From the NCBI RefSeq assembly GCF_013282215.1, contig NZ_CP048103.1:2108001-2172000 (forward strand): DNA of 64,000 nucleotides, in the 5' to 3' direction. Position 1 is the first letter of the stretch. Every line of letters begins with the position of its first letter. Position numbers and translations under genes: made by a program. The notes under the pieces are model-generated. The model saw nothing but the letters and a program-made list of their open reading frames with translations. It was not told where the DNA came from and did no database searches. Positions 7,153-23,907 of the stretch are shown piece after piece. The stretch is from Kroppenstedtia eburnea. Lineage in GTDB: Bacteria > Bacillota > Bacilli > Thermoactinomycetales > DSM-45169.

Positions 7153-7336
7153 TAGAAGCATTGTGAAAAAGCCATTCATACCCATAGGGCACAAGTCTCG
7201 CCAGGGTGCTTTCGCACCCGGTCTCACTATGTAGGGAGGGTTGGGTTTCACATGGAGTGATTTTGGATCGTCAGAACAACGAAAACGACATGTGAAACCC
7301 AATCCCGACCGCCAACGCAATAAATCCAATACTTCG
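7153..7336 (-). repeat. MITE-like palindromic repeat, copy B
   Basis: Begins TAGAAGCATTGTGA at 7153 and ends in a degraded inverse terminus (AATCCAATACTTC). The core hairpin GGGTTTCACATG/CATGTGAAACCC lies at about 7243-7301. Orientation is opposite to copy A. It occupies most of the 7118-7519 intergenic region, about 40 bases upstream of the second pucR-like gene; nothing else convincing is seen there. Confidence 0.85.
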
Positions 7337-7519: not shown

Positions 7520-9112
7520 ATGAGACTTTCCCTCGAAGATCTGAATCGCATGGATCAAACCACTTTTACGGTGACCCTCGGCTGGATCTTCGAACACTCC
7601 CCCTGGGTCGCGGAACGGGCGTGGAAAAACCGTCCCTTCTCCTCCCTGGACGCTTTGCATCAGGCCCTTCAGAGTGTAGTGGAGGAAGCCACGATGGCGG
7701 AGAAGCTGAATCTGCTCCGGGCCCATCCCGAACTGGCCGCCCGGGTGAAAATGGCTGACGCATCCGTACGGGAGCAAGCCGCCGCCGGGCTGGATCAGCT
7801 GACCCAGAATGAGTACGAAGACTTTACCGCACTGAATCAGGCCTATTCTCAGCGATTCGGTTTTCCTTTCATCATCGCAGTCCGTGGCAAGAACAAAAAC
7901 GAAATCCAGGCCGCCCTGTGGAAACGGCTGGGTGCAGAACCGGAAGCGGAGTTGGAGAACGCTTTGCAGGAGATCTACAAGATCGCCCGCTTTCGCCTGG
8001 AGGATGTGATCGGAAAAAAAACGGACGGGATTCCCGGCCAAACCGATGAAAGACCGCAATGGAACAAAAAGTCGGCACCAACCGATGCAATCCCACAATT
8101 GAGGAGTGATTCGATGCAAACGGAGCCCACGCAACGGAAAAGAGTCATGTTTTACGGCAAGGGAGACGTTTTCGTTTACCGAACATACGCCAAACCGCTC
8201 GTCGGAGTAAAGCAAATCCCGGAGTCCACCTTCACCAAAAAAGAGAATGTGATCTTCGGAATGAATGTCAAGATCGCTCTGCACGGGGATAAGTTTCTCT
8301 CCTCCTTCACCGAAGGAGACAACAGCCTGGTCATCGCCACCGATTCCATGAAAAATTTCATCCAACGTCAAGCCGCCCATTACGAAGGATCCACCATCGA
8401 AGGTTTCCTCGAGTTTGTTTGTAAACGCTTTCTGGAAAAGTATCCACACGTCACTTCCATCGATATCTCCGCAGACGAAGTTCCTTTCGATCCCTGTATC
8501 GTACCCGGCGAATTCGGAATGCAGGGAAGCGGCCTCGTATATCGTCATTCCCGGAACGAGCACGCCACCGTCAGCATGGAAGTGACCCGGGGTCCCCAGG
8601 GATACGAGATCAGCCGGCATCAAAGCGGGATCTCCGACCTGCACCTGATCAAAGTGAGCGGGAGCTCCTTTTACGGCTATATTCAGGACGAGTACACAAC
8701 TTTGAAGGAAGCGTATGACCGTCCCTTGTTCATCTACGTCAACATCGGCTGGAGATACGGAAACGTGGCTGATGCTTCCGGAGCGGATCCATCCCGCTAT
8801 GTTCCCGCGGAACAGATACGGGACATCGCCCGCACGGTGTTCCATGAGTTGAACAACCGCTCCATCCAACACCTCATCTACCACATCGGGCGCCGTATTC
8901 TTCAGCGCTTCCCACAATTGGCCGAAGTGCAATTTGAGACCAATAACCGGACCTGGTTCACCGTGGTGGAGGATATCCCCGATTCCCAGGGCGGAGTATT
9001 CACCGAACCCATGCCTCCTTACGGATTCCAAGGCTTCACCATGACCCGGGCGGATCTCGGGGAAACCACAACGGAAGGGGAACCGGCCCTTGTGGGGGTT
9101 GAAACCCGATGA
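7520..9112 (+). CDS. pucL: bifunctional OHCU decarboxylase / urate oxidase (PucL-type fusion)
   Basis: Two purine-degradation enzymes in one 530-aa polypeptide, as in Bacillus PucL. Residues about 1-170 are 2-oxo-4-hydroxy-4-carboxy-5-ureidoimidazoline decarboxylase (LRAHPELAARVKMADAS, LNQAYSQRFGFPFIIAVRG). Residues about 205-525 are uricase (MFYGKGDVFVYRTYAKPL, GDNSLVIATDSMKNFI, FTEPMPPYGFQGFTMTRAD). Uricase oxidises urate to 5-hydroxyisourate; after PucM the decarboxylase domain gives S-allantoin. The two active sites thus catalyse steps one and three, and step two is the next gene, which overlaps by four bases (ATGA). The start ATG at 7520 has only a weak AAAGG/TAAGG site. No allantoinase gene follows in this window. 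Confidence 0.96.
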   Translation: MRLSLEDLNRMDQTTFTVTLGWIFEHSPWVAERAWKNRPFSSLDALHQALQSVVEEATMAEKLNLLRAHPELAARVKMADASVREQAAAGLDQLTQNEYEDFTALNQAYSQRFGFPFIIAVRGKNKNEIQAALWKRLGAEPEAELENALQEIYKIARFRLEDVIGKKTDGIPGQTDERPQWNKKSAPTDAIPQLRSDSMQTEPTQRKRVMFYGKGDVFVYRTYAKPLVGVKQIPESTFTKKENVIFGMNVKIALHGDKFLSSFTEGDNSLVIATDSMKNFIQRQAAHYEGSTIEGFLEFVCKRFLEKYPHVTSIDISADEVPFDPCIVPGEFGMQGSGLVYRHSRNEHATVSMEVTRGPQGYEISRHQSGISDLHLIKVSGSSFYGYIQDEYTTLKEAYDRPLFIYVNIGWRYGNVADASGADPSRYVPAEQIRDIARTVFHELNNRSIQHLIYHIGRRILQRFPQLAEVQFETNNRTWFTVVEDIPDSQGGVFTEPMPPYGFQGFTMTRADLGETTTEGEPALVGVETR

Positions 9113-12164: not shown

Positions 12165-12953
12165 TCATCTGCCCTTAAAAGACGGCTCCCGCTTGGTAAA
12201 GAAAGCCGTCACTCCTTCGATGGCATCCTCTGTCCGGATGACGGACAACATATTCTCCCGTTCGATGGATAATCCTTGGGACAAATCTCCTTCCGATCCT
12301 CTGACGACAGCGTCCAGGATTCCCTTCATCGCAATCGGCGGACCGGCAGCCAGTTCCTTTGCCCATTGGAAGGCCTCTTCATGAACCTGATCTTGCGGTG
12401 CAATCCGGTTGATCAATCCGTACTCCAAAGCGGTTGGGGCGGAGATCCGACGGCCGCTCAGCATCAGCTCCAGGGCCCGCCGGCGGCCGATCAGCCGGGG
12501 AAGCCGCTGGGTTCCGCCGTACCCGGGGATAATGCCCAGTCTCACCTCCGGCAACCCCAGTTCCGCCGTGTCGGCGGCGATCGCCAGATGACAAGCCATC
12601 TGCAGTTCATTTCCCCCGCCGAGAGCTTTCCCGTTGAGACAGGCGACAACCGGTTTGGGAAAAGCTTCGATCCGGTTGAACAGATCGTGCATCCGTTTCA
12701 AAATCTTTTCCGCGACTTCCCGATCGCCGCCCATTTCCCCGAACTCGGAGACATCGGCACCGGCGGAAAACATCCGGTCACCCGCCCCGGTGATGAGGAG
12801 GCAACCGACCGCCTCATCGGATTCCACCTGATCCAGAATTCCTTCCAGTTCCACCAGTGTATCCCGGCTCAGGGTATTCATCGGGGGGCGGTCAATCGTA
12901 ATCACTGCCACCCGATCCCGGATCTCCCATTTGCAGTTCGGACTTTCCATCAT
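12165..12953 (-). CDS. enoyl-CoA hydratase/isomerase family protein
   Basis: Crotonase-fold enzyme (about 262 aa) that hydrates trans-2-enoyl-CoA in fatty-acid beta-oxidation. Oxyanion-hole and substrate motifs are visible: FSAGADVSEFGEM, CLNGKALGGGNELQMACHLAIA, and LPEVRLGIIPGYGGTQRLPRLIG with the catalytic Glu. The start overlaps the upstream thiolase stop (ATGATG, stop TGA inside), and GGGAGGA precedes it; the ATG at 12950 is equally possible. The neighbouring thiolase, SDR, SCP2 and acyl-CoA dehydrogenases make a complete beta-oxidation set. Confidence 0.92.
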   Translation of the reverse strand: MMESPNCKWEIRDRVAVITIDRPPMNTLSRDTLVELEGILDQVESDEAVGCLLITGAGDRMFSAGADVSEFGEMGGDREVAEKILKRMHDLFNRIEAFPKPVVACLNGKALGGGNELQMACHLAIAADTAELGLPEVRLGIIPGYGGTQRLPRLIGRRRALELMLSGRRISAPTALEYGLINRIAPQDQVHEEAFQWAKELAAGPPIAMKGILDAVVRGSEGDLSQGLSIERENMLSVIRTEDAIEGVTAFFTKREPSFKGR

Positions 12954-14113
12954 GATTCCTCCCGTTCCACGATCACCGCCAGGGCCATGCCGAATCCGAT
13001 ACATAAGGTGGCCAAACCGTAACGGCCTTCCCTTCGCTCCAGCTCGTTGATCAGGGAAGCCGTCAGCCGGGCGCCGCTGGCACCGAGGGGATGGCCGAGG
13101 GCGATGGCTCCGCCGTTGGGGTTCACCTTCTCCGGATCGGCACCGATCTCCCGCTGCCAGGCCAATACCACCGAGGCGAAGGCCTCATTCACTTCAAACA
13201 GATCGATCTCATCCAGAGACAGACCCGCCCGTTGCAACACCTTATGAGTGGCCGGGATGATTCCCGTCAACATGATTTCCGGATCCACCCCCGCCAACGC
13301 CGTCGCCACCACTCTGGCCCGGGGAGTCCATCCGAGAGAAGCCGCCTTTTTCCGGGAAGTGAGGAGAACAGCGGCTGCCCCGTCGCTGATTTGACTGGAG
13401 TTGCCCGCCGTCACCTTGCCGTCAGGCCGGAACGAGGGCTTCAACCCCGCCAGCGAGTCCAGATTGGTATCCGGTCTCGGAGTCTCGTCGGCCTCCAGGC
13501 GGATGTCTTCTCCTGCAAGGTTTTTTCCATCGATGGGGACGATCTCCCGGTCAAAGCGCCCTTCCCTTTGGGCCTGAACTGCCCGCTCATGGCTTTGCAG
13601 AGAGAATCGATCCAGTTCCTCTCTGGAAAGGTCCCACTTGTCTGCGATCAATTCTGCGGAGAAACCCTGGGGGATGATGGTATGTTGATTCAACAAAAGG
13701 TCGCTGAATTGACCGCCGTCACTTCCCATCGGGACCCGGTTCATACTTTCCACCCCGGCGGCGATGACACAATCGGACATCCCAGCCATGATCGCGTGGG
13801 CCCCCTGGGCCAGCGTTTCCAGGCTGGATGCACACATCCGGTTGACGCTCACACCGCACACTTCCACGGGAAACCCGGCGATCAACCCGGCCAAACGGCC
13901 GATATTGAGACCTTGTTCTCCCACTTGGGTGACACAACCCATTTTGATATCTTCCACTTCGGAAGGATCCAGGTTGTTCCGGTTAACCAGCTTTTTGAGA
14001 AGAGAGGCGGCCATTTCATCCGGCCGCGTGCCGGCGAGGGAGCCTTTCTTCCGTCCGAAGGGGGTTCGGATCGCGTCGATGATTACCGCATCCTGATCCC
14101 GCACATTTCTCAT
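12950..14113 (-). CDS. thiolase (acetyl-CoA C-acyltransferase, FadA-type)
   Basis: Thiolytic cleavage of 3-ketoacyl-CoA, the last beta-oxidation step (387 aa). The N-terminus reads AVIIDAIRTPFGRKKGSLAG. The acyl-accepting cysteine is in SVNRMCASSLET (about C94), the histidine motif is NGGAIALGHPLGASGAR, and the second catalytic cysteine region is TLCIGFGMALAVIVE, where the usual GGG is GFG. The start is ambiguous: ATG 14113 directly follows GGAAAGG, while GTG 14104 has better nine-base spacing. An even longer reading exists but has no ribosome site. The stop overlaps the next gene. It lies 28 bases downstream of the SDR gene in the same direction. Confidence 0.92.
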   Translation of the reverse strand: MRNVRDQDAVIIDAIRTPFGRKKGSLAGTRPDEMAASLLKKLVNRNNLDPSEVEDIKMGCVTQVGEQGLNIGRLAGLIAGFPVEVCGVSVNRMCASSLETLAQGAHAIMAGMSDCVIAAGVESMNRVPMGSDGGQFSDLLLNQHTIIPQGFSAELIADKWDLSREELDRFSLQSHERAVQAQREGRFDREIVPIDGKNLAGEDIRLEADETPRPDTNLDSLAGLKPSFRPDGKVTAGNSSQISDGAAAVLLTSRKKAASLGWTPRARVVATALAGVDPEIMLTGIIPATHKVLQRAGLSLDEIDLFEVNEAFASVVLAWQREIGADPEKVNPNGGAIALGHPLGASGARLTASLINELERREGRYGLATLCIGFGMALAVIVEREES

Positions 14114-14141
14114 CCTTTCCGTCGATTCATGGCCCGGGATG

Positions 14142-14975
14142 TCAAAAGGTGAACAAGTCGATTCCGCCCGCCACCGGCAAGCCGACTCCAGTGATATAAG
14201 ATGCCTGATCCGAGACGAGAAATGCGATCGCATGGGCGATATCCTGCGGCTCCCCGGGCCGTTTAAAGGCCGTTCTGGCAATCATCCGTTCGCGCATCTC
14301 CGGATTGCTCATGCGAAAGGCTTCCGTATTGATAATCCCGGGAACAATGGCGTTGACTGTGATATTGTACCTGGCCCCTTCCAAAGCCAATGACTTGGTC
14401 AACCCCAGCACACCGGCCTTGGTCGTGGAATAACTCGCCTGGCCGAATCCCCCCAAGGTTCCCGCAACAGAGGCCATATTGATGATCCGGCCCCATTTCT
14501 GCTCCTTCATATAGGGCCAAACTGCTTTGGAACAGTTGTAAGCCCCGGTCAGGTTGACACGGAGATCACGCTCCCAGAAGTCGTCGTTCTGGTCTTCCAA
14601 GCGGGCGGTGTGATCCAGAGTGGCGGCGTTGTTGACCAAAATGTCAATCCGTCCGAATTGTTCCTTTACTTGGGTCATCACCGATTGGACTTCTTTCCGA
14701 TCTGTCACATCCATTCGAAACACGGCGGACTTGCGGCCCATCTCCCGGATTTTCGCCGCCGTGGATTGGGTGTACACCACTTGCGACTGAGCCATCACTT
14801 GGGCCATGGGCCCCCATTTTTCAGAGGTCTGCTCCAGGTTTTCATCCTCTTCGATCAAAATATCGGTGACCACCACATCGGCACCGGCTGCAGCCAGCGT
14901 CAAGGCATCGGTCCTGCCCAATCCCCTGGATGCCCCGGTCACCAGTGCCACCTTTCCTTCCAGCGGCAGACTCAT
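14142..14975 (-). CDS. SDR-family dehydrogenase, likely 3-hydroxyacyl-CoA dehydrogenase
   Basis: Short-chain dehydrogenase (277 aa). It shows the Rossmann motif VTGASRGLGR, DILVNNAA, the catalytic Ser in INMASVAGT and the Tyr-x-x-x-Lys motif YSTTKAG. An insertion after the second beta strand (about residues 45-75) is longer than in FabG. Given its place upstream of thiolase and enoyl-CoA hydratase genes it probably oxidises 3-hydroxyacyl-CoA, the one beta-oxidation step otherwise missing from the cluster; this is inference. ATG 14975 has GGGGAGGA upstream. A hairpin at 15127-15155 separates it from the SCP2 gene, so it may have its own promoter. Confidence 0.88.
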   Translation of the reverse strand: MSLPLEGKVALVTGASRGLGRTDALTLAAAGADVVVTDILIEEDENLEQTSEKWGPMAQVMAQSQVVYTQSTAAKIREMGRKSAVFRMDVTDRKEVQSVMTQVKEQFGRIDILVNNAATLDHTARLEDQNDDFWERDLRVNLTGAYNCSKAVWPYMKEQKWGRIINMASVAGTLGGFGQASYSTTKAGVLGLTKSLALEGARYNITVNAIVPGIINTEAFRMSNPEMRERMIARTAFKRPGEPQDIAHAIAFLVSDQASYITGVGLPVAGGIDLFTF

Positions 14976-15126
14976 GTTTTCTCCTCCCCGTTGGTTGTAC
15001 AGCCGGCGACAACTCCACTCAGCACCCGGTACTTTCCGGGTCATCCTGTAGGTTCACAATCTTTTCCACCGACTGCAGACATTCAGACTGTGATCCCCCA
15101 TGCACTCGCCGGAGCCATGACTCAAA

Positions 15127-15160: not shown

Positions 15161-15526
15161 TCAGATATGTTCCTTGACGTCATATTGACGCAGAATATTT
15201 TCCATCTTCATGGCCAGCCCGATATTTCCTTTCACTTTCAGCCTTCCGGACATGAAGGCGGCGGTCCCGTTCAATTTTCCCAGCAGCATCTCTTTGAAAT
15301 CAGGCAACGCCATTTGCAGGGTGCAATCCGCATCAGAGGGAGTTCCTTCCTCCACCTTTGCTTTGTTGTCGGCGAGATGAAGCTGATAACTGCCCCCATC
15401 CTCTCCGGAAATGTCAAATTGATAGACGACGTTCAGTCCTTCGACCGGCTTCGGATTTTCATTCAAAGCGCTTTCGATTTTTTCCCATGCTTCCTTGAGG
15501 GTGTAATCATCAATACTTTTAGCCAT
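15161..15526 (-). CDS. SCP2 sterol-carrier-domain protein
   Basis: A 121-aa stand-alone SCP2 domain. Such proteins bind lipids or fatty acyl-CoA in a hydrophobic pocket. Recognisable features are VVYQFDISGEDGGSYQL, DADCTLQMALPDFKEMLLGKLNGTAAFMSGRLKVKG and the C-terminal helix MKMENILRQY. It lies between the acyl-CoA dehydrogenases and the SDR gene, so a role in delivering acyl substrates is likely but not proven. ATG with GAGAGGAG upstream. Confidence 0.9.
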   Translation of the reverse strand: MAKSIDDYTLKEAWEKIESALNENPKPVEGLNVVYQFDISGEDGGSYQLHLADNKAKVEEGTPSDADCTLQMALPDFKEMLLGKLNGTAAFMSGRLKVKGNIGLAMKMENILRQYDVKEHI

Positions 15527-15682: not shown

Positions 15683-16900
15683 TCAAACCCGAACTCCGTG
15701 GGGCTCATAGAGATGACGAGCCGTGATCAGATGCTGAACTTGATTGGTTCCCTCAAAAATGTCAAAGATCTTGGCATCCCGATAAAGCTTCTCCACGATT
15801 TGTCCATCGAGACCGGCGGGACCCAACAGTTCCAAACACCCGGCACACACTTCCAGAGCGATCTTGCCGGAGTGGGCTTTGCACATGGCCGCTTCCTTGG
15901 CGTTGGATTGGCCGATATCGGCTTTCCATGCCGCCTCCCAGGTGAGCAGACGCGCCGCCTCGATCTCCAGTTCCGCACGGGCCAACTTCTCGGAAGCCAA
16001 GTGATAAAGGCGTCCATGCTTCGGATACTCTTTCCGTACCAGATCCAATGTATATTCAAAGGCGGCACGGGCGATTCCGATGGCCATCGCGGCCACGATA
16101 GGCCGGGTATTGTCAAAGGTTTTCATCGCCACCCGAAAACCCGACGGACCGGAACCCTGATTTTCATAGTAGGATTCACCGCCGAGGAGATTCTCCTCCG
16201 GTACGAAGCAATCCTCCAACAACAACTCCGCCGTCTCCGAGGCACGGATGCCCATTTTTTTGGCGAGGCGGGTGCAACTGAAACCGGGTGTCCCCTTTTC
16301 AACGACGAAGGCCCGATGGCCGGCACGTCCCAAACTGCGGTCGATCGTGGCAAACACAACCACCCAGGAAGCGCGCGCCCCATTGGTGATAAAGATTTTT
16401 TGTCCGTTGAGGATATACCCGCCCGTTGTTTTTTGGGCGGTGGTCCGGATTCCGGAGACATCGGATCCCGCCTCGGGCTCAGTCAATGCATAGGCACCCC
16501 AACGAGGCGGCTCATCTTTTGAAAAGATGGATAAAAAACGTTCCTTCTGTTCCGGTGTGCCGCTGGACTGCACCGGCGGCCCTCCCAATCCCGGACCCGG
16601 AAGAGTCAATGCGATGGCCGGATCCCCCCACCCGAGCTCCTCGGTCGCGATCACCGCCAACCGGTTGGCCTGACGCTCCGATTTTGCCTTTTTACCGCTT
16701 TTCTGCGAGCTTTTTTTATCTTCACCGAATGAGGACGTATTCAACTGTATTCCCAGCTGATTGATCTTATTTAGCCAATCATCGGGCACTCTTCCCATTT
16801 TGTCCGCTTCCAGGGAGATCGGCCGCATTTCATTTTCCGCAAACCAGTGCACCACATCCTTCACTTGCTGTTGATGCGACGACAATTTGTAAGAGATCAT
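15683..16900 (-). CDS. acyl-CoA dehydrogenase
   Basis: FAD-dependent alpha,beta-dehydrogenase of acyl-CoA (405 aa). FAD/substrate motifs: AYALTEPEAGSDVSGIRTTA, GYILNGQKIFITNGARA, and the C-terminal FDIFEGTNQVQHLITARHL; the catalytic Glu in this family normally sits in the YRDAKIFDIFEGT region. A lysine-rich insert (SFGEDKKSSQKSGKKAKSERQ, about residues 55-75) is unusual. SD AAAGGAGGG precedes ATG 16900, which is 14 bases after the stop of the second acyl-CoA dehydrogenase, so the two are cotranscribed. Confidence 0.93.
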   Translation of the reverse strand: MISYKLSSHQQQVKDVVHWFAENEMRPISLEADKMGRVPDDWLNKINQLGIQLNTSSFGEDKKSSQKSGKKAKSERQANRLAVIATEELGWGDPAIALTLPGPGLGGPPVQSSGTPEQKERFLSIFSKDEPPRWGAYALTEPEAGSDVSGIRTTAQKTTGGYILNGQKIFITNGARASWVVVFATIDRSLGRAGHRAFVVEKGTPGFSCTRLAKKMGIRASETAELLLEDCFVPEENLLGGESYYENQGSGPSGFRVAMKTFDNTRPIVAAMAIGIARAAFEYTLDLVRKEYPKHGRLYHLASEKLARAELEIEAARLLTWEAAWKADIGQSNAKEAAMCKAHSGKIALEVCAGCLELLGPAGLDGQIVEKLYRDAKIFDIFEGTNQVQHLITARHLYEPHGVRV

Positions 16901-16914
16901 CGGGCGTCCCTCCT

Positions 16915-18060
16915 TTAAGCCCCGGTGGGTACGTGCTCACCCAGCAATTGTTCACCGCGGCGGGCCATCAGTTCACCCTCCCGCCCGTAGAGGCTGACTT
17001 GGGCTTGGGCATCACGCATCCACTTTTCAACGGGGAATTCCTGAACGTATCCATGTCCACCGAGCAATTGTACCGCGGAATCGGTTACGAAACGGAGGGA
17101 TTGGTGCACCCGGGACAGAATCCCGCCCACGGCTTTCCTCCCGTCAGGGTTCCCGTCATCGATCCTCTCCGCCGTCTGCCACAGAAGGTTCCGGGAAGTC
17201 CGCGTCTCGATCGCCATATCAGCAAGAGTGAAAGAGACTCCCTGAAATTTGGCGATCTCCTGGCCAAAAGCTTTCCGTTGCGCCGTATATTCGGCGGTAT
17301 AGGAGACGGCGGCTTCCATCAGACCCACCTCTTTGGCCACTTCCAGCACGTAAATCCGGGCCAGGGCCTGTGACAAGAGCTCCCGGGCTTCACTTCCTTT
17401 GGCAATCACTTGACCCGGAGTGATCATCTCCTCTTCAAACCGCACACGTGCACAACCTGCGGCCAGCAATCCCAAACGATAATCCCCTTCCACCACATGC
17501 CATCGGCTGCCATCCCGGCGGTCCAACCACAACAGGAGGGGCTCTCCTCCGGGATCATTCACTGCCACGAGCAGGTTCTCAGCAAATGCGGCCAATCGGA
17601 AGGGCTGGGAGGTTCCCTTTAAAACATATCCCTCCCCGTTGGAATCCACCTGGACTCCCGACATCCCCTCTCCATCCACAGCATGGAGGAAGGCAACAGT
17701 GGGCCAATCCCCGTCCGCACCGGCCGTCTTGTAGGATTGCAAGGCCGGGTGGTCCGGAATCAGACGGATCAGGGATGCCCCCTCCCCGGCGCCGGGCAAT
17801 CCTTGTACCACTCCAAGATCCCCGTACCCGAGGGCTCCCCAGATTTGAGCTTGGGAAAGCAAGGGCATCTCCAAGCCCCCCCAATTTTCAGGGAGTTCCA
17901 GGTTGGTGAAGCCCAGCTCCATCATGGTCTTTACCAGATCGGGATGGACCCGTCCCTCTTGTTCACACTCCATGGCCATGGGTCGGATCTGCTCCCGGGC
18001 CACCTCCCCGGCCAGATCTGCAAAGGCCGACTCCTCCTCTGTGGGTTGAAATGAAATCAA
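16915..18060 (-). CDS. acyl-CoA dehydrogenase (divergent paralogue)
   Basis: Second acyl-CoA dehydrogenase (381 aa from the chosen start). The C-terminal half is canonical (YTAEYTAQRKAFGQEIAKFQGVSF, SAVQLLGGHGYVQEFPVEKWMRDAQ). The middle lacks a classic EP.AGSD motif: it reads FLHAVDGEGMSGVQVD, suggesting altered substrate or a subunit role alongside the next gene. TTG 18060 is preferred because GGGGGAGG lies eight bases upstream; a GTG at 18078 lies over that site. First gene of the unit, with the shared palindrome at 18154-18175 in its promoter region. Confidence 0.88.
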   Translation of the reverse strand: MISFQPTEEESAFADLAGEVAREQIRPMAMECEQEGRVHPDLVKTMMELGFTNLELPENWGGLEMPLLSQAQIWGALGYGDLGVVQGLPGAGEGASLIRLIPDHPALQSYKTAGADGDWPTVAFLHAVDGEGMSGVQVDSNGEGYVLKGTSQPFRLAAFAENLLVAVNDPGGEPLLLWLDRRDGSRWHVVEGDYRLGLLAAGCARVRFEEEMITPGQVIAKGSEARELLSQALARIYVLEVAKEVGLMEAAVSYTAEYTAQRKAFGQEIAKFQGVSFTLADMAIETRTSRNLLWQTAERIDDGNPDGRKAVGGILSRVHQSLRFVTDSAVQLLGGHGYVQEFPVEKWMRDAQAQVSLYGREGELMARRGEQLLGEHVPTGA

Positions 18061-18153
18061 ATCAACCGCCTCCCCCACCGAAATGGATCAAATCTGTAAG
18101 TTCAGATATTTACAAGTGTGATCCTGCACCATAAGCACATACCGGATAGAAGC

Positions 18154-18175
18154 GATACCAGTACGTACTCGTATC
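18154..18175. promoter_or_regulatory. palindromic operator in front of the acyl-CoA dehydrogenase unit
   Basis: GATAC and GTATC arms surround GTACGTAC: a 22-bp near-perfect palindrome, 94 bases upstream of the start. The same pattern occurs at 22099-22120 before the SCP2-R2lox unit. It is a likely site for a TetR/FadR-type repressor; the regulator is not in the window. Confidence 0.65.
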
Positions 18176-18244
18176 ATAACCTGTTTTTATCTTAAAATCA
18201 AGAGACCATTCAAACAATTGGATATTTTCCGGACCGATCTTTGA

Positions 18245-18565
18245 TCAGCGGGATTTTTGGGATAGCAGTTCTTTTAACTCCCGGATCTCATTTTCCAACC
18301 GTTGGATCCTCTCTTCCAACCCGGTGAGGTTTACGCCTTCCTGCTTCCGACTCAGTTTCCACCTTTGGTATCGTTCATAGAGCAAAAGCAAGCTGGGATC
18401 CCCGATCAGGGTATCCATCACGGCATCTTCAAAGGTTTCCTTGTACCCGTCCATCCCGTGATCCTCTCCGTACAATAAATGCTTCTCCAACAGTTCGGGG
18501 ATCTGGCTGTTATGCGGCCCTCCACTCTGACGATAGAACGCCTGAATCCGCTCTTCCATACTCAT
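18245..18565 (-). CDS. small protein with C-terminal coiled coil, unknown function
   Basis: 106 aa, not assigned to a family. It is acidic in the centre (LLYGEDHGMDGYKETFEDAVMD), has a hydrophobic stretch LIGDPSLLLLYERYQ and ends in heptads (LEERIQRLENEIRELKELL) typical of a short coiled coil. No signal peptide or cysteine is seen. ATG 18565 is chosen because GGAGGAG lies six bases upstream; longer readings run into the aarF-like gene. It is immediately downstream of that gene (48 bases) and may be cotranscribed with it. Confidence 0.65.
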   Translation of the reverse strand: MSMEERIQAFYRQSGGPHNSQIPELLEKHLLYGEDHGMDGYKETFEDAVMDTLIGDPSLLLLYERYQRWKLSRKQEGVNLTGLEERIQRLENEIRELKELLSQKSR

Positions 18566-18612
18566 TTTTTTCTCCTCCATCCCTGTCCCTCCCCATACCA
18601 ACTTCGATTTGG

Positions 18613-20361
18613 TTACGCACGTTTGGATCGAATCACCCGCCAACACACGTAGAGGGCCAGAGCTGTGGAGGACCAGATCAGCCCTTCACCCAGCCAGCGC
18701 AGGGAAGGGGTCGCCTTCATCGCTTCTGCGCCGAAGGAAAGGAGCAAGGAGGACCCGACAAAGATCCCGCCGGCCAACACACCCAATGTCAACCGATTGA
18801 CTGATCGGTTCAACCATCGCCTGATATCATCGGGGACTCGATGTTCCACGGGCAACTTCAGATCGTTCCAGGCCAGTTTCTCCAAAATCTTGTTCAACCG
18901 GCGGGGAAAGGTCCCTGCCAATTTACCCAGTTCAGTGATCAAGCTGGCGTTTGCCCGATAGTTTAAACGACGGGACAACCAACGACGAAGAATCTGGACA
19001 TCCGCCGACTCCACCGCCGTATGGTAACTGATTTCCGGACATAACCACCGAGCCGTGCCCTCAGCCGCCGAAAACCCCTTCGCCCACAGTGCGAGACCGT
19101 TGGGAATGCGGCAATGGTTTCGCATGCCGATGGTGATCAGTTGAATCAGCAGATTTCCCCAGTTATGGCGACCCCCTTGCTCACTGTTCACATAGTGGAT
19201 GAACATGGAGCGAAGCTCATCTTTCAGACGCACCGGATCCGTGTAGGGCGTCGGTTGAACCAAGTCCAGCGCCGCTTCGGCCGCATCCTCGGCCTGATTC
19301 ACCCGGATATGCATCAGGGCGCGAAAAATCGCCTCGGTGTGAAGGGAGTCCATTCTGCCCACCATGCCCCAATCGATTCCGATGATCTTTTTCGTCCTAC
19401 GGTCCACCATCAGGTTGGATCCGTGGGGATCCGCATGATAAAACCCGTCTGAAAAGGTTTTCACATAGTAGTGGGCCAGATCGATCATCCTCATGAAGCG
19501 CTCTTCAAAAGTAAAGAAATCGACGGGAAACTCTTTGAGATTCCAACCATCGATAAATTCCATCACCAATACCCGACGGGTGGTCATGTAGACCTCCGGT
19601 ACACCCAGGGTTTCAAATTCCGCCCCGATCTGCCTGTGGGCCTCAATATTTCTGGCTTCGACGCGCATGTCCAGTTCATTGATCGAGCTGCTGTAATATT
19701 CCTCAATCAGGCCGGGTAACTCCACGGAGGCAGCCAATGCCGGAGGAAGGCGCTTTTGCAGATGTTTGGCCAAGGTTCGGATGATGGAAATATCCGTTTG
19801 GAACAACTTGTCCACCGTGGGCCGCACCACTTTGACGGCACATTCCCGTCCATCCTTCAACTTCCCATGATACACCTGGGCCAATGAGGCAGAACCGATC
19901 GGTTCGGGATGGATCCACTCAAAGGTTTGCAGACCATCGGGCAGCTCATCCTCCAACACCAGAGCCATATGTGAAAAAGGTTGAGCGGGAACATCATCCA
20001 ACAATTCCGCAAGCTCCGTCGTGATGGAATCCGAAAGGATCTCCTGCCGGGATACCAACACCTGGCCCAACTTGATAAAGGTGGGGCCCAACTCCTCAAA
20101 AGCCAGGCGCATCCTCCGCCCGATTTTGCGCAATTGATCCCGGTCCGCTTCACTCCCTCCCCCACGGAACAGCCGGAAGCTTTTCCTGTCGAAGAGGTGT
20201 AACAAACCGTGTTTGGCAAACACTCTGATCATGGTGCGAAATCTTTTGTGCCGATTGATCTTGTCCCGCATCTTGTCAACTTCCCGCCGCAACTGCTCCT
20301 TCCTTCCTTGGAGAATATCCTCTTTGCCGACGTGGATTTTTTCGGCAGGCATGGCACCCAT
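18613..20361 (-). CDS. AarF/UbiB/ABC1-family atypical kinase
   Basis: Protein-kinase-like fold protein (582 aa) linked in other bacteria to quinone or prenyl-lipid metabolism. Family marks: AFEELGPTFIKLGQVLVSRQ (KxGQ motif, about residues 92-110), IGSASLAQVYHGKL (Ala-rich loop with ECAVKV lysine), FYHADPHGSNLMV and GIDWGMVGRM replacing HRD/DFG. Two membrane segments are predicted near the C-terminus (LGVLAGGIFVGSSLLLSF and WSSTALALYVCW). The start ATG 20361 has AAAGGAG upstream. A small coiled-coil protein gene follows. Whether it serves menaquinone synthesis here is inference. Confidence 0.9.
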   Translation of the reverse strand: MGAMPAEKIHVGKEDILQGRKEQLRREVDKMRDKINRHKRFRTMIRVFAKHGLLHLFDRKSFRLFRGGGSEADRDQLRKIGRRMRLAFEELGPTFIKLGQVLVSRQEILSDSITTELAELLDDVPAQPFSHMALVLEDELPDGLQTFEWIHPEPIGSASLAQVYHGKLKDGRECAVKVVRPTVDKLFQTDISIIRTLAKHLQKRLPPALAASVELPGLIEEYYSSSINELDMRVEARNIEAHRQIGAEFETLGVPEVYMTTRRVLVMEFIDGWNLKEFPVDFFTFEERFMRMIDLAHYYVKTFSDGFYHADPHGSNLMVDRRTKKIIGIDWGMVGRMDSLHTEAIFRALMHIRVNQAEDAAEAALDLVQPTPYTDPVRLKDELRSMFIHYVNSEQGGRHNWGNLLIQLITIGMRNHCRIPNGLALWAKGFSAAEGTARWLCPEISYHTAVESADVQILRRWLSRRLNYRANASLITELGKLAGTFPRRLNKILEKLAWNDLKLPVEHRVPDDIRRWLNRSVNRLTLGVLAGGIFVGSSLLLSFGAEAMKATPSLRWLGEGLIWSSTALALYVCWRVIRSKRA

Positions 20362-20514
20362 ACAGCGCGCTCCTTTCTCTCCTCCGCTTCAAACAACCCG
20401 TATCCGGATTGTCAGCCTTGTTGACGGGGTCATGCTTCCATCCGTTACCAGAAGATCAAGAGCAGGAGCCTCCCCTCACGCGGGGAGGCCAACCCTGATC
20501 CTGATCGATACCAC

Positions 20515-20683
20515 TAGAAGCATTGTGATTTAGTGCGTTTGAAGGCGGTCGGGATTGGGTTTCACATGTCGTTTTCGTTGTTCTTACGATCCAAAATCAC
20601 TCCATGTGAAACCCACCCCTCCGTGCATAGTAACCTTGGCGAGACTTGTGCCCTGTGGGTATGACGCCTTTCACAATGCTTCC
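20515..20683 (+). repeat. MITE-like palindromic repeat, copy C (complete)
   Basis: The best full copy: TAGAAGCATTGTGA at 20515, core hairpin GGGTTTCACATG/CATGTGAAACCC, and inverse terminus TCACAATGCTTCC ending 20683. Its end lies 17 bases from the R2lox stop. The rest of 20362-20514 holds only a GC hairpin, GCCTCCCC/GGGGAGGC at 20468-20489. Confidence 0.9.
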
Positions 20684-20700
20684 AAACCTTCAAGCGCCGG

Positions 20701-21588
20701 TTACAACGCCTCCCCCATCTCTTCCTCACTTGCTTGCCGGATCCTGTCTACGGATTGGTTTCGGGCCCGTTCGAGGACATTCATTCGTGATCCGAACTGT
20801 TTCACAGCCACCTGTACCATCTCATTTTTATCCAACCCGAAGGGAAGTTCCTCCACCTCGGCGATCAGATCGTTCACCAAGCCGATCGCCGGGGCCATCA
20901 GCAATTCCATCCGTTTGTTCACGACATCCCAGATGTGATCGTGCTCTGCAATCAAACGGGACAGGAGATAAACACCGTAACAGATGTGGCGGGATTCATC
21001 CCGTTTCAAATATTCAAAGGCCTGAACGGTTCCCGGCATGATCCCCAATCGTTTATAGGACATAAATGTGGAATGATATCCCGTTTCCGCCAGCATCCCT
21101 TCGACGATCATATTGTAAGTGACCGACGCCTCCGCCTGGGCCTCGGGAGATGGGTCACGGGTCAGACGCTCCATCGCTTCCGGCAGGTATTCATAGAAGA
21201 TTTTCTTGTAGTTGTCACTGTGATAAATGGACAGATCACCGGTGATCCCCAGCTCGTCAACCATTCTGCGGAACACTTCCACATGTTTGGCCTCTTCCCA
21301 GAGAAATGTGGTCAGATACATCTCTTCTTCAAGACGCCCCTCATTGGCGATCACTTGGATCAGAGGGAGCAGATCCTTTGTGACTGCTTCCTCACCACCC
21401 AGGAAAACCGAGTTCAACCTCAGGGACATCCCTTTTTCGATCTCGTTGAAAGTGGCCCAGTCCTTCCGATCCTGGGAGAAATCGATATCTTTGGGGTCCC
21501 AGGTGCCCAGCTTCTTGGCCTTGTGATAAAGACGCATCGGCAGCATGGAATGATCCAAGCCCGTACTGGTGGTTTGCATCACACGCAT
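20701..21588 (-). CDS. R2-like ligand-binding oxidase (R2lox, Mn/Fe cofactor)
   Basis: Ferritin-fold oxidase related to ribonucleotide reductase R2 (295 aa). All six metal ligands expected from the Geobacillus R2lox are present at about E66, E99, H102, E163, E198 and H201 (GGEEAV, WEEAKHVE, MIVEGML, RDESRHIC). The pair that forms the Val-Tyr ether crosslink, V69 and Y158, is also present, which separates it from R2 proteins. Known family members hold a Mn/Fe centre and bind a long-chain fatty acid, with no settled function. ATG 21588 has GGAGGG upstream. It follows an SCP2-like gene by 58 bases in the same direction, and that unit shares an operator with the beta-oxidation genes. Confidence 0.92.
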   Translation of the reverse strand: MRVMQTTSTGLDHSMLPMRLYHKAKKLGTWDPKDIDFSQDRKDWATFNEIEKGMSLRLNSVFLGGEEAVTKDLLPLIQVIANEGRLEEEMYLTTFLWEEAKHVEVFRRMVDELGITGDLSIYHSDNYKKIFYEYLPEAMERLTRDPSPEAQAEASVTYNMIVEGMLAETGYHSTFMSYKRLGIMPGTVQAFEYLKRDESRHICYGVYLLSRLIAEHDHIWDVVNKRMELLMAPAIGLVNDLIAEVEELPFGLDKNEMVQVAVKQFGSRMNVLERARNQSVDRIRQASEEEMGEAL

Positions 21589-21646
21589 GTGATTCCCTCC
21601 ATTACTTTTTATTCAGATTGGAACCGCTTTCAGCCCGGACACTTTT

Positions 21647-22075
21647 TCACTTCAGACCCTCCGGTATCTCCGTATCGATTTGCATCGCGGTTTTCATCAG
21701 CTGTTGCGATGCGATCACATAGGCGGTCAACTCCGCCATATTCCCTTTGACCAAGCGCAATCTTCCCCGCATCAGTGTCGACAGAGGTTCCAGCCGACCG
21801 TCAAAGAGTTGCTTCCACGTTCGGGTGTCACCACTGATCACAGTGGGGGCCGACTCCAGATCGGCTTTGGAGGAGACTCTGGCCTCCAGACATTCTCCAT
21901 GTCGCAAATCCAGATAAACCCAACGGTCCTCTTCCAACCCGACAGATGGGTCTTTCTCCACCAAAAATACGATCGGTCCTTCCCAGGTCCTGGCGGCCTG
22001 CCGGTACTGCACATTTTGATTCAGCTTCTCTTTATACTGTTGGGCCCATTCTTCCGTGAACGGTTCAAACGGCAT
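21647..22075 (-). CDS. SCP2-like lipid-binding protein
   Basis: 142 aa, probably a divergent SCP2 domain: GPIVFLVEKDPSVGLEEDRWVYLDLRHGECLEARV resembles the beta-sheet part, and TRTWKQLFDGRLEPLSTLMRGRLRLVKGN resembles the helix-strand ending of SCP2 proteins. A longer reading from 22129 would place the palindromic operator inside the gene; ATG 22075 is preferred because AAGGAG sits at correct spacing. It heads a unit with R2lox, suggesting that the two act on or carry the same lipid ligand (inference). Confidence 0.75.
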   Translation of the reverse strand: MPFEPFTEEWAQQYKEKLNQNVQYRQAARTWEGPIVFLVEKDPSVGLEEDRWVYLDLRHGECLEARVSSKADLESAPTVISGDTRTWKQLFDGRLEPLSTLMRGRLRLVKGNMAELTAYVIASQQLMKTAMQIDTEIPEGLK

Positions 22076-22098
22076 CCAGATCGCTCCTTCTTTTTGTT

Positions 22099-22120
22099 GA
22101 TACTGATACGTACCAGTATT
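22099..22120. promoter_or_regulatory. palindromic operator in front of the SCP2-R2lox unit
   Basis: GATAC-TGA-TACGTA-CCAG-TATT matches the 18154-18175 site in core and arms, and both continue with AT. It lies just upstream of the SCP2-like ribosome site. The following stretch to 22536 contains two GC-rich CGCCGGGCCC segments but no gene or clear terminator. Confidence 0.65.
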
Positions 22121-22536
22121 ATGAGCCAAATATTCTTTCTAGTCAATTATATTCCCAATTATCCGTCGATTATATCCGCCCCTCGGACCCGAGTTTAAAA
22201 ATCACCACCAAAAACGCCGGGCCCCTTTTTACTGAGAGACACGGCGTTTCATTCCCCGGGTCCGGGATGGCCGATATCACCGGTGGTGCCTAAATTTCCG
22301 GATCAAACAGCACCTTTCCATACAGCCCTTCCCGGTTTATCATTTTTTCAAAAACCGCCGGGCCCTCTCTCAGACTCAATCGGTGTGAGATTTCACGTCA
22401 CAGCTCCCTTTTTTGCAGCTCTCACACTTGCCACAATAAAAAGTGGACCGTCACTCTGTCATCGACTTTTACATGAGTAATTGCGGTCCTCCGGCTGAAA
22501 ACCAGATCAAGATTTCCCCACTTCACCGGTTTGTTG

Positions 22537-23907
22537 TCAACCGACGATAAGATTGGCCAGCAGTAGCAACACAAGGGAAACCGCCCATGCCAGTGTCGTG
22601 GGCACCGACCAGGTCCAGAGCTGTTCTTTCACATTTCGGATCCCCATCATCCGGTTGGCCACCCAGAACATGCTGTCGTTGAAATAGGAGAACATCATGG
22701 AACCCATGGCTGCTCCCTGTGCGGCCAACACCATATTTACATCCAGAGTGGCGATCATGGGTGCCGAGATGGAAGCTGCCGTGATCATGGCGACAGTTCC
22801 ACTCCCCTGAATCAGTCGTACCAGGGTGGAGATAAAGAATGGCAACAATACCGCGGGCAACGGCGCTTTGGCAATCAGTTTTGCGATCTCTTCACCGGCA
22901 CCGCTTTCCCGGAGAACATTTCCCAGGGCACCGCCGGCTCCGGTCACCAACAGGATGATCCCCGCCGATTGAACCCCTTCTTCCATCCGCTCCAATGCCT
23001 GTGACCGGCGCAAATGGCCGAACAGACCGTACAAAGCGATCAACAGCCCGATGCCCACGGCAATCACCGGAGAGCCCAGGAAAAGCACATAATCGAACAG
23101 ACCGCCTTTCAGTTCCATCGCCGACAGGATGGTGTTGGCCAGGATCAGAAGGAGAGGTGCCAGGATCGGCAATACGGAGATCCAGAGAGACGGGAGATTT
23201 TTCTGTTCTTCCATCTCCACAAACTCCTGAAAGGTGCGGGGCTGTTCCGGCCGGATCCATCCCATTCCCTCTTCATCCGGCAGCTGGTATATCTTGCTGC
23301 CCACCCATTTGCTGTAGATCACGCCGGTGATCATAACCGGAATGCCGAAGATGAGCCCCCACAGCATCATCAGGCCGACATCCACCTGGAAGATTCCCGC
23401 CACTCCCAGGGGACCCGGGGTGGGTGGAACGAGATGGTGCGTCGCCGTCAATCCGATGCCGAGGGCCACCCCCAACCCCACCACGGACTTCCCGGTTTTG
23501 GAGGAGAGTGCCTTTGCAATCGGTGTCAAAATCACGAAGGCGGAATCCACGAAGATGGGAATGGAGACCACATACCCCGTCAAGGCCAACGCCCACTCTT
23601 CCTTCCTCTTCCCCATCCATTTCAGAAAGCTGTAGGCCATTCGCTCCCCCGCACCGGAAACCTCCAGGATCCGGCCCATCATCACTCCGAAACCGATCAC
23701 CAATCCGATGGTGCCCAAGGTATTGCCAAAACCCGTCGTGATCGCTTCAATGACGGCCGGTGGAGCCATCCCCCCGACCAGACCTGTCACCGACGCGGCG
23801 ATGATCAATGCCGGGAATGCGTGCACTTTCGTTTTCAGGACCAAAAAAATCAAGGCACCAATTCCTAACGCCAGCCCGAGAATCATCATGGCGACAGAAC
23901 TGTTCAT
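22537..23907 (-). CDS. GntP-family gluconate/organic acid permease
   Basis: Inner-membrane proton symporter of the gluconate:H+ symporter family (456 aa, 12-14 membrane segments). Signatures: GFGNTLGTIGLVIGFGVMMGRILEVSGAGERMA and GYVVSIPIFVDSAFVILTPIAKALS, ATHHLVPPTPGPLGVAG, VRLIQGSGTVAMITAASI, and MMFSYFNDSMFWVANR. Start ATG 23907 has GGGAGGA; an upstream extension lacks a ribosome site. It stands alone. Substrate may be gluconate, D-glycerate or a related hydroxy acid; the four-carbon sugar-acid genes 3 kb away have a separate transporter. Confidence 0.9.
   Translation of the reverse strand: MNSSVAMMILGLALGIGALIFLVLKTKVHAFPALIIAASVTGLVGGMAPPAVIEAITTGFGNTLGTIGLVIGFGVMMGRILEVSGAGERMAYSFLKWMGKRKEEWALALTGYVVSIPIFVDSAFVILTPIAKALSSKTGKSVVGLGVALGIGLTATHHLVPPTPGPLGVAGIFQVDVGLMMLWGLIFGIPVMITGVIYSKWVGSKIYQLPDEEGMGWIRPEQPRTFQEFVEMEEQKNLPSLWISVLPILAPLLLILANTILSAMELKGGLFDYVLFLGSPVIAVGIGLLIALYGLFGHLRRSQALERMEEGVQSAGIILLVTGAGGALGNVLRESGAGEEIAKLIAKAPLPAVLLPFFISTLVRLIQGSGTVAMITAASISAPMIATLDVNMVLAAQGAAMGSMMFSYFNDSMFWVANRMMGIRNVKEQLWTWSVPTTLAWAVSLVLLLLANLIVG

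Follow-up and report, generated by a model that had tools for sequence, protein, structure and literature searches.

A gene for an R2-like ligand-binding oxidase (R2lox) poses the question of which pathway its product serves: for a long time this oxidase has been described as having an unknown role, and the enzymatic activity claimed for it rests on crude lysates. We analyzed a 64,000-nucleotide stretch of the Kroppenstedtia eburnea genome (NZ_CP048103.1, positions 2,108,001 to 2,172,000; hereafter the window), in which one 22-bp palindrome precedes both a unit of an SCP2-like lipid carrier gene and R2lox and a unit of acyl-CoA dehydrogenase (ACD) genes. Judged from sequence, the palindrome is very probably the operator of an autoregulating TetR-family protein encoded elsewhere in the genome (G000:C1:1590.3 kb, G000 being the K. 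eburnea genome), which would co-regulate R2lox with acyl-CoA degradation. Comparison of genomes showed a shared putative operator, its co-occurrence with one regulator, conserved targets and overlap with predicted promoters. Taken as a whole, these findings are best explained, with moderate confidence, by a TetR-repressed long-chain acyl/hydrocarbon regulon in which R2lox would be the oxidizing entry enzyme. A regulator, an operator and a three-operon regulon constitute independent evidence of the pathway of R2lox and make its role testable.

Three copies of the palindrome in the genome

The initial annotation had placed the palindrome before both units, and both copies were confirmed. The operator of the ACD unit occupies 18154-18175 (minus strand; GATACCAGTACGTACTCGTATC as presented), and that of the SCP2b-R2lox unit occupies 22099-22120 (minus strand; GATACTGATACGTACCAGTATT as presented, AATACTGGTACGTATCAGTATC on the minus strand). 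Scanning the window with up to three mismatches gave five matches against 0.28 expected in shuffles; four of these were the two operators counted on both strands, and the fifth (52855, three mismatches) matched on a single strand. The annotation's remark that there was no other copy held within the window but not genome-wide. In the whole genome (3,564,999 bases, up to two mismatches) there were three palindromic places, whereas a reversed control pattern gave none; by arithmetic with equal base frequencies, about 0.01 sites would be expected in 3.56 Mb. The third copy (G000:C1:1590304-1590325) is located 19 bp before a TetR-family gene. Hits therefore precede acyl-CoA dehydrogenase genes and a TetR-family gene, where the annotation had proposed to look for them; the genome holds three copies, not many unrelated ones, and the pairing of SCP2 with R2lox and the operator are conserved across genera.

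The next gene on the TetR strand, about 260 bp further, encodes a 632-amino-acid AMP-binding protein (acyl-CoA synthetase) closest to the FadD11 fatty acid-CoA ligase model (423 bits, under the cut-off of 950). In three relatives (L096, L121 and L186) a ligase of the FadD11-like kind sits between SCP2a, the lipid carrier gene of the ACD unit, and a gene for a short-chain dehydrogenase/reductase (SDR), and other relatives have a gap of about the size of a ligase gene there. Because TetR is followed by a ligase gene, the three operators of K. eburnea cover activation (the TetR unit), beta-oxidation (the ACD unit) and SCP2b-R2lox.

Co-occurrence of the putative operator with a TetR-family gene

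We searched 61 genomes, including that of K. eburnea, for the operator (strict pattern RTACNNRTACGTAYNNGTAY), the TetR protein and R2lox. Genomes named here are K. guangzhouensis (G001), Melghirimyces thermohalophilus (G003), Paludifilum halophilum (G007), M. profundicolus (G009), Thermoactinomyces vulgaris (G013) and Alicyclobacillus sendaiensis (G047). The TetR query was an alignment of 13 sequences (E up to 1e-25), and matches of at least 215 bits were counted. TetR was found in 19 of the 61 genomes, six of which also have a weaker, uncounted paralogue (132-155 bits), and all 19 have a strict site. No strict site was found in the 42 genomes without TetR. Of the two scans behind this result, one accepted a single mismatch to a pattern that differed slightly and the other covered part of the 42, which means that in some of them a site with deviations at both ends could have been missed. 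Near-matches outside the strict pattern were seen in six of the 42 (G011, G034, G039, G048, G055 and G058). Because the genomes are related, these co-occurrences are not independent events.

Among 299 genomes of the class Bacilli, again including our own, 26 have a strict site; a TetR match (E <1e-45, at most ten candidates scored per genome) was found in 17, all of them among the 26. Reversed-pattern controls matched in 3 of the 299. The nine genomes with a strict site without TetR are G105, G184, G213, G235, G238, G254, G270, G271 and G293. In G105, a C-terminal remnant of TetR (L113:7668-8032) lies beside a conserved operator, apparently a decayed regulon; in the other eight, no TetR of the regulon kind was found. 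Six of these (G184, G213, G238, G254, G270 and G293; L115, L117, L119) belong to another genus and carry one related palindrome per genome without TetR, reading TACGTATTCGTA in five of the six. G209 has a related TetR (39% identical, L116:7914-8711), preceded at 66 bp by a strict site of its own and followed by a gene for an S-layer-homology protein.

Placement of the sites and promoter register

The 19 TetR genomes contain 41 strict sites, 39 of which lie within 230 bp upstream of TetR, ACD, SCP2-R2lox or SDR-R2lox genes (placement was taken from the loci around scanned sites; G007, G021 and G033 were covered by the 61-genome scan alone). Sixteen are 13-25 bp before TetR. Fourteen, in as many genomes, precede an ACD gene, namely ACD1 in six cases and an ACD2-like gene in eight. 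Eight, in eight genomes, are 3-109 bp before the start of the SCP2b open reading frame (ORF) in an SCP2b-R2lox unit, and one, in the metagenome-assembled genome (MAG) G056, precedes an SDR-R2lox gene pair. Of the remaining two, one is in G009, at a distance of about 550 bp upstream from the ACD1 site, and the other is in G056, 15 bp before a DUF6114 gene (L067:6815-7750, minus strand; operator at 7766); the position of the latter suggests that DUF6114 belongs to the regulon in G056. An imperfect site before SCP2b and genes for an alcohol dehydrogenase (ADH) and an aldehyde dehydrogenase (ALDH) in G056 is outside the 41. The operator adjoins the TetR gene itself in 16 of the 19 genomes; the exceptions are G033, with its site downstream of TetR and before ACD, G056, with sites elsewhere in the cluster, and G021, with a partial TetR on a broken contig. 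A ferritin/rubrerythrin-like gene divergent from TetR at one locus (L107:6360-6812, minus strand) has a weak, sub-threshold match to fatty aldehyde decarbonylase.

In K. eburnea each of the three operators coincides with the -10 box of a promoter-like sequence. At the SCP2b-R2lox operator the overlapping -10 box is that of TTGACT-17-CATAAT, a sigma-A-like promoter (22118-22146, minus strand); a second such promoter (TTGATT-17-TATGAT, 18173-18201, minus strand) overlaps the ACD operator, and by reading the sequence the TetR promoter shares this layout (TTGACC-17-TAAAAT). A promoter scan of the region is weak by itself, since it gave 7 promoter-like matches against 3.4 expected; the register is better evidence. 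Among 39 oriented sites, which leave out two of the strict ones, a TTGA starts 26 bp before the site in 13 cases and 27 bp before it in 8 (21 of 39), with at most two sites at any other offset. The other 18 lack the register; they include the R2lox sites of G014, G018 and G021 and the majority of the ACD sites in genera other than that of the window. The operator is retained while its flanks diverge strongly between genera. Its invariant letters are forced by the search pattern; where the pattern leaves a choice, the inner spacers prefer CA and TG, which gives the core ATACCAGTACGTACTGGTAT.

The palindrome could instead have arisen by chance, or be a repeat or structural motif that has nothing to do with regulation of R2lox. 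This might be argued from the nine class genomes with a strict site without TetR, six of which belong to a single other genus and have one similar palindrome each. We give this reading almost no weight in view of the genomic count against expectation and control, the co-occurrence with one TetR, the promoter register and the placement; as far as sequence can, the genome scan and the co-occurrence rule out a repeat or chance match.

Identity of the regulator

The regulator was assigned to the TetR family by a PF00440 match in the G056 orthologue and by matches of the K. eburnea protein to TetR-type NCBIfam models and solved TetR structures. The initial annotation had spoken of a FadR-like repressor, and this stands for the fold alone. 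The best matches to a structure model of the P. halophilum orthologue (L121) include BkaR, the FadR proteins of Bacillus subtilis and B. halodurans, and FasR; for B. subtilis FadR and for FasR these are structures both free and bound to an acyl-CoA (stearoyl-CoA and C20-CoA, respectively). The best NCBIfam model is indeed that of FadR (NF053878), but the score is 49.7 bits against a cut-off of 200, and a separate, true FadR (288 bits) is encoded elsewhere in the same genome. The regulator is thus not a canonical Bacillus-type FadR.

From the modeled fold, we consider it fairly probable that the inducer is of the acyl-CoA type. Because TetR folds resemble each other, the match can do no more than favor such a ligand; AlkX of Dietzia (PDB 5ydp) also appears among the structures resembled, at rank 50. 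Two points weigh against the assignment. The model was built from two sequences and has a confidence (predicted local distance difference test) of 73, and a simple acyl-CoA inducer fits poorly with Geobacillus thermoleovorans, in which P21 is induced by alkanes and fatty acid is no efficient inducer (PMC2676291).

R2lox and its proposed place in the regulon

R2lox (20701-21588, minus strand) scored 368.3 bits against NF006202 (cut-off 315) and has an SCP2-like gene directly upstream. The two genes, which the initial annotation had placed in one unit, are adjacent, and the residues are intact as it had stated. All six metal ligands (E66, E99, H102, E163, E198 and H201, after the list for the Geobacillus R2lox in PMC10867098) are present and invariant in 13 aligned rows; the Val/Tyr pair V69/Y158, from which the crosslink is predicted and which is likewise invariant in these rows, and the tunnel alanine A167 (PMC6399176) are present as well. 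The protein is about half identical to GkR2loxI of G. kaustophilus (105 of 206 alignment columns). The SCP2b gene (21647-22075, minus strand; PF02036, 31.8 bits for 21647-22096) has its best start at 22075, after GAAGGAG, and by reading the sequence the longer ORF would run through the operator.

Among the 19 TetR genomes, 12 encode R2lox (>300 bits), and nine have a site before the R2lox unit (G000, G001, G003, G007, G009, G014, G018, G021 and G056). In a tree of 29 R2lox proteins, a clade of nine (100/99) holds eight of the nine operator-bearing proteins, that of G056 being separate; G019 alone in the clade lacks a site. R2lox (>260 bits) also occurs in 9 of the 42 genomes without TetR. In G004, which kept the TetR regulon, an R2lox fragment with an in-frame stop (G004:C19:23464-24000) apparently represents loss of R2lox.

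In P. halophilum (L121) the regulon is contiguous: operator-TetR, operator-SCP2b-ADH-R2lox-ALDH-UbiB-small protein and operator-ACD1-ACD2-SCP2a-FadD-SDR-thiolase, with a beta-lactamase-fold gene between TetR and the second operator. The order SCP2b-ADH-R2lox-ALDH-UbiB is found again in L129, L131, L132 and L135, where this operator is absent, and in L142, where the contig has no UbiB, so that ADH and ALDH share an operon with R2lox in these five loci and L121; the window's operon contains neither. R2lox lies close to the same ACD genes in L134, G046 (L089) and Bacillus sp. CECT 9360 (L186, about 3 kb apart), and SCP2-R2lox adjacency is found even in Ignavibacteriales and Bacteroidetes MAGs (L143, L190). 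Most of 79 named loci, above all those of Chloroflexota, showed none of this gene order at the thresholds used, several being short contigs.

We propose the following mechanism. In the absence of long-chain substrate, a TetR dimer would sit on the -10 region and block all three promoters, and a long-chain acyl-CoA or related catabolite would release it. R2lox, fed by SCP2b, would use O2 at its Mn/Fe site on a long-chain aliphatic substrate; the product might reach acyl-CoA directly or, in operons that include them, by way of alcohol and aldehyde dehydrogenases, and would be degraded by the co-regulated beta-oxidation set. The part of this that makes R2lox the oxidizing entry step of the regulon's pathway is one toward which we lean slightly. 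More tentatively still, R2lox may be the O2-activating entry enzyme of a dedicated hydrocarbon/acyl catabolic regulon in which an acyl-CoA-sensing TetR, acting through the one operator, represses R2lox in a module with its lipid carrier and the UbiB kinase, along with acyl-CoA activation and a paired-subunit ACD pathway, the kinase and SCP2 being partners of R2lox.

Hydrocarbons are at least as likely substrates as acyl chains, because the operons of relatives include ADH and ALDH and the Geobacillus R2lox is reported to hydroxylate alkanes (PMC10867098). The ADH and ALDH of relatives argue for terminal hydroxylation, and their absence here calls for caution. Within the same regulon, R2lox might instead leave alkanes alone and modify acyl chains directly: SCP2b would deliver a fatty acid or acyl-CoA, which R2lox would desaturate or hydroxylate within the chain. 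Long-chain fatty acids accompany R2lox proteins through purification (PMC6399176), an earlier proposal cast the enzyme as a desaturase (PMC4118035), and gene spacing leaves no ADH or ALDH between SCP2b, R2lox and UbiB in K. eburnea, G001, G003, G009 (copy 1), G014, G018, G019 and G021 (L120, L122-L124). We nevertheless regard this as rather unlikely: wider-family SCP2b-R2lox-UbiB operons carry ADH and ALDH, as expected of terminal hydroxylation, and the Geobacillus authors deem the bound hydroxy fatty acid an unlikely substrate (PMC10867098). The initial annotation's suggestion that R2lox acts on acyl lipids under a repressor is strongly supported as to co-regulation with acyl-CoA degradation by a TetR protein, but an acyl-lipid substrate is not settled.

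Every one of the nine members of the R2lox clade has a UbiB-like kinase gene next to R2lox, and kinases of the ABC1/UbiB type have links to the biology of quinones and lipids. R2lox and UbiB might therefore maintain or repair membrane lipids or quinone, sharing a repressor with beta-oxidation merely through a common lipid signal. This appears improbable, as it leaves unexplained the ADH and ALDH in the operon of relatives and the proximity of R2lox to ACD genes in L089, L134 and L186.

Several observations weigh against R2lox as the entry enzyme of a TetR-controlled regulon. G013, G019 and G022 have R2lox without a site before it at up to two mismatches; M. profundicolus (L109) and M. thermohalophilus (L110) each have a second R2lox copy that also lacks the site. 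A search for a hidden weaker operator in 11 promoter stretches before such site-less copies gave best candidates with at least 6 mismatches in 18 scored positions, none of which was accepted (two stretches, L104 and L126, represent one place; the test did not extend to L101, L105 and L110). R2lox is not obligatory in the regulon, since an intact copy is missing from 7 of the 19 TetR genomes. UbiB may be off the R2lox transcript, because a dispersed repeat sits between the two genes. The alkane activity was obtained with crude lysate, and a double metal-ligand mutant lost no more than part of it (PMC10867098). The alkane reading is further weakened here, because the window's R2lox operon is without ADH and ALDH and their best homologues in the genome, 46% identical and not behind an operator, are distant; orthologues of the relatives' enzymes were sought, and these homologues were all that was found. 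An ALDH gene about 5 kb downstream of TetR (G000:C1:1595761-1597185, plus strand) is outside the operators and 44% identical to that of the G056 cluster.

DUF6230 proteins occur in 15 of the 61 genomes (13 with TetR, 2 with R2lox only), including K. eburnea (G000:C1:3127569-3127976); in G009 (copy 2), G014, G018, G046 and G056 their genes are no more than about 5 kb from R2lox. In 11 of 13 loci (L068, L072 and L208-L216 among them) they share the N-terminal motif of P21/P16, alkane-induced proteins of Geobacillus. Through the regulon, R2lox is linked to a dedicated SCP2 protein, to a UbiB-like kinase and, more indirectly, to these DUF6230/P21 proteins.

Other features of the locus

All genes described here are on the minus strand. 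Downstream of R2lox are the ABC1/UbiB-like atypical kinase (18613-20361; PF03109, under the UbiB equivalog cut-off) and a small protein conserved after UbiB, its function unknown (18245-18646, ORF coordinates, start uncertain), which matched no Pfam or NCBIfam family at E 0.001, giving weak sub-threshold matches alone. The ACD unit spans 18078 to 12165. It begins with ACD1 (16915-18078), an acyl-CoA dehydrogenase-like subunit without a middle-domain match, and ACD2 (15683-16900), with all three domains matched; the pair hints at a heteromeric dehydrogenase. These are followed by SCP2a (15161-15526; PF02036, 87.7 bits), an SDR/FabG-like 3-oxoacyl reductase-type dehydrogenase (ORF 14142-15044, start probably about 14975), a thiolase (ORF 12950-14281, start probably about 14113) and an enoyl-CoA hydratase (ORF 12165-13004, start probably about 12950).

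The repeat between R2lox and UbiB (20530-20632) is 103 bp long and forms a strong hairpin (GGGTTTCACATG...CATGTGAAACCC, fold z-score -3.9). It has at least 44 copies in the genome, others being at about 7226-7323 of the window and upstream of TetR (L001:1285-1341), and was matched by no Rfam family. A scan of 18000-23000 of the window gave no Rfam match, and terminator-like matches at the locus were no more frequent than in shuffles.

Comparison with known systems

An R2lox/beta-oxidation cluster and the claim of alkane hydroxylation are already published for Geobacillus, GkR2loxI being reported as alkane-degrading (PMC10867098). As far as the literature searched shows, the operator and its TetR are new. 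Searches on R2lox with regulon, operon or TetR, and on TetR, alkane and Geobacillus, gave nothing on this operator or regulator among the papers listed, most subscription journals lying outside their scope; nor did a search on Thermoactinomycetaceae with alkane list anything to the point. In a word search of PMC10867098, "regulator" and "SCP2" were not found.

The G. kaustophilus genes GK2769-GK2782 resemble those described here in combining R2lox with ALDH, ADH, acyl-CoA dehydrogenase, FabG-like reductase, thiolase, hydratase and acyl-CoA ligase, and GK2770, adjoining GkR2loxI, is the orthologue of P21 (PMC10867098). They form a single cluster, whereas in K. eburnea three units are joined by one operator and include two SCP2 proteins and a UbiB-like kinase. 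A further neighborhood of acyl-CoA dehydrogenase, TetR and R2lox may be that of Mycobacterium Rv0231-Rv0233, for which a literature search listed a single genome association study.

AlkX of Dietzia is, by its PDB title, likewise a TetR repressor of n-alkane degradation. It governs AlkB/AlkW-type hydroxylases, not R2lox. The TetR-type FadR proteins of Bacillus, Thermus (PMC5597230) and Sulfolobus (PMC6449355) are also TetR-family regulators of fatty-acid degradation, repression being described for the latter two, and the Sulfolobus protein binds at its own gene (PMC6449355), like the apparently autoregulated TetR of K. eburnea. They differ from it in the operator, which is TTRNACYNRGTNYAA in Thermus (PMC5597230), and in sequence, the regulator described here falling far short of the Bacillus FadR cut-off.

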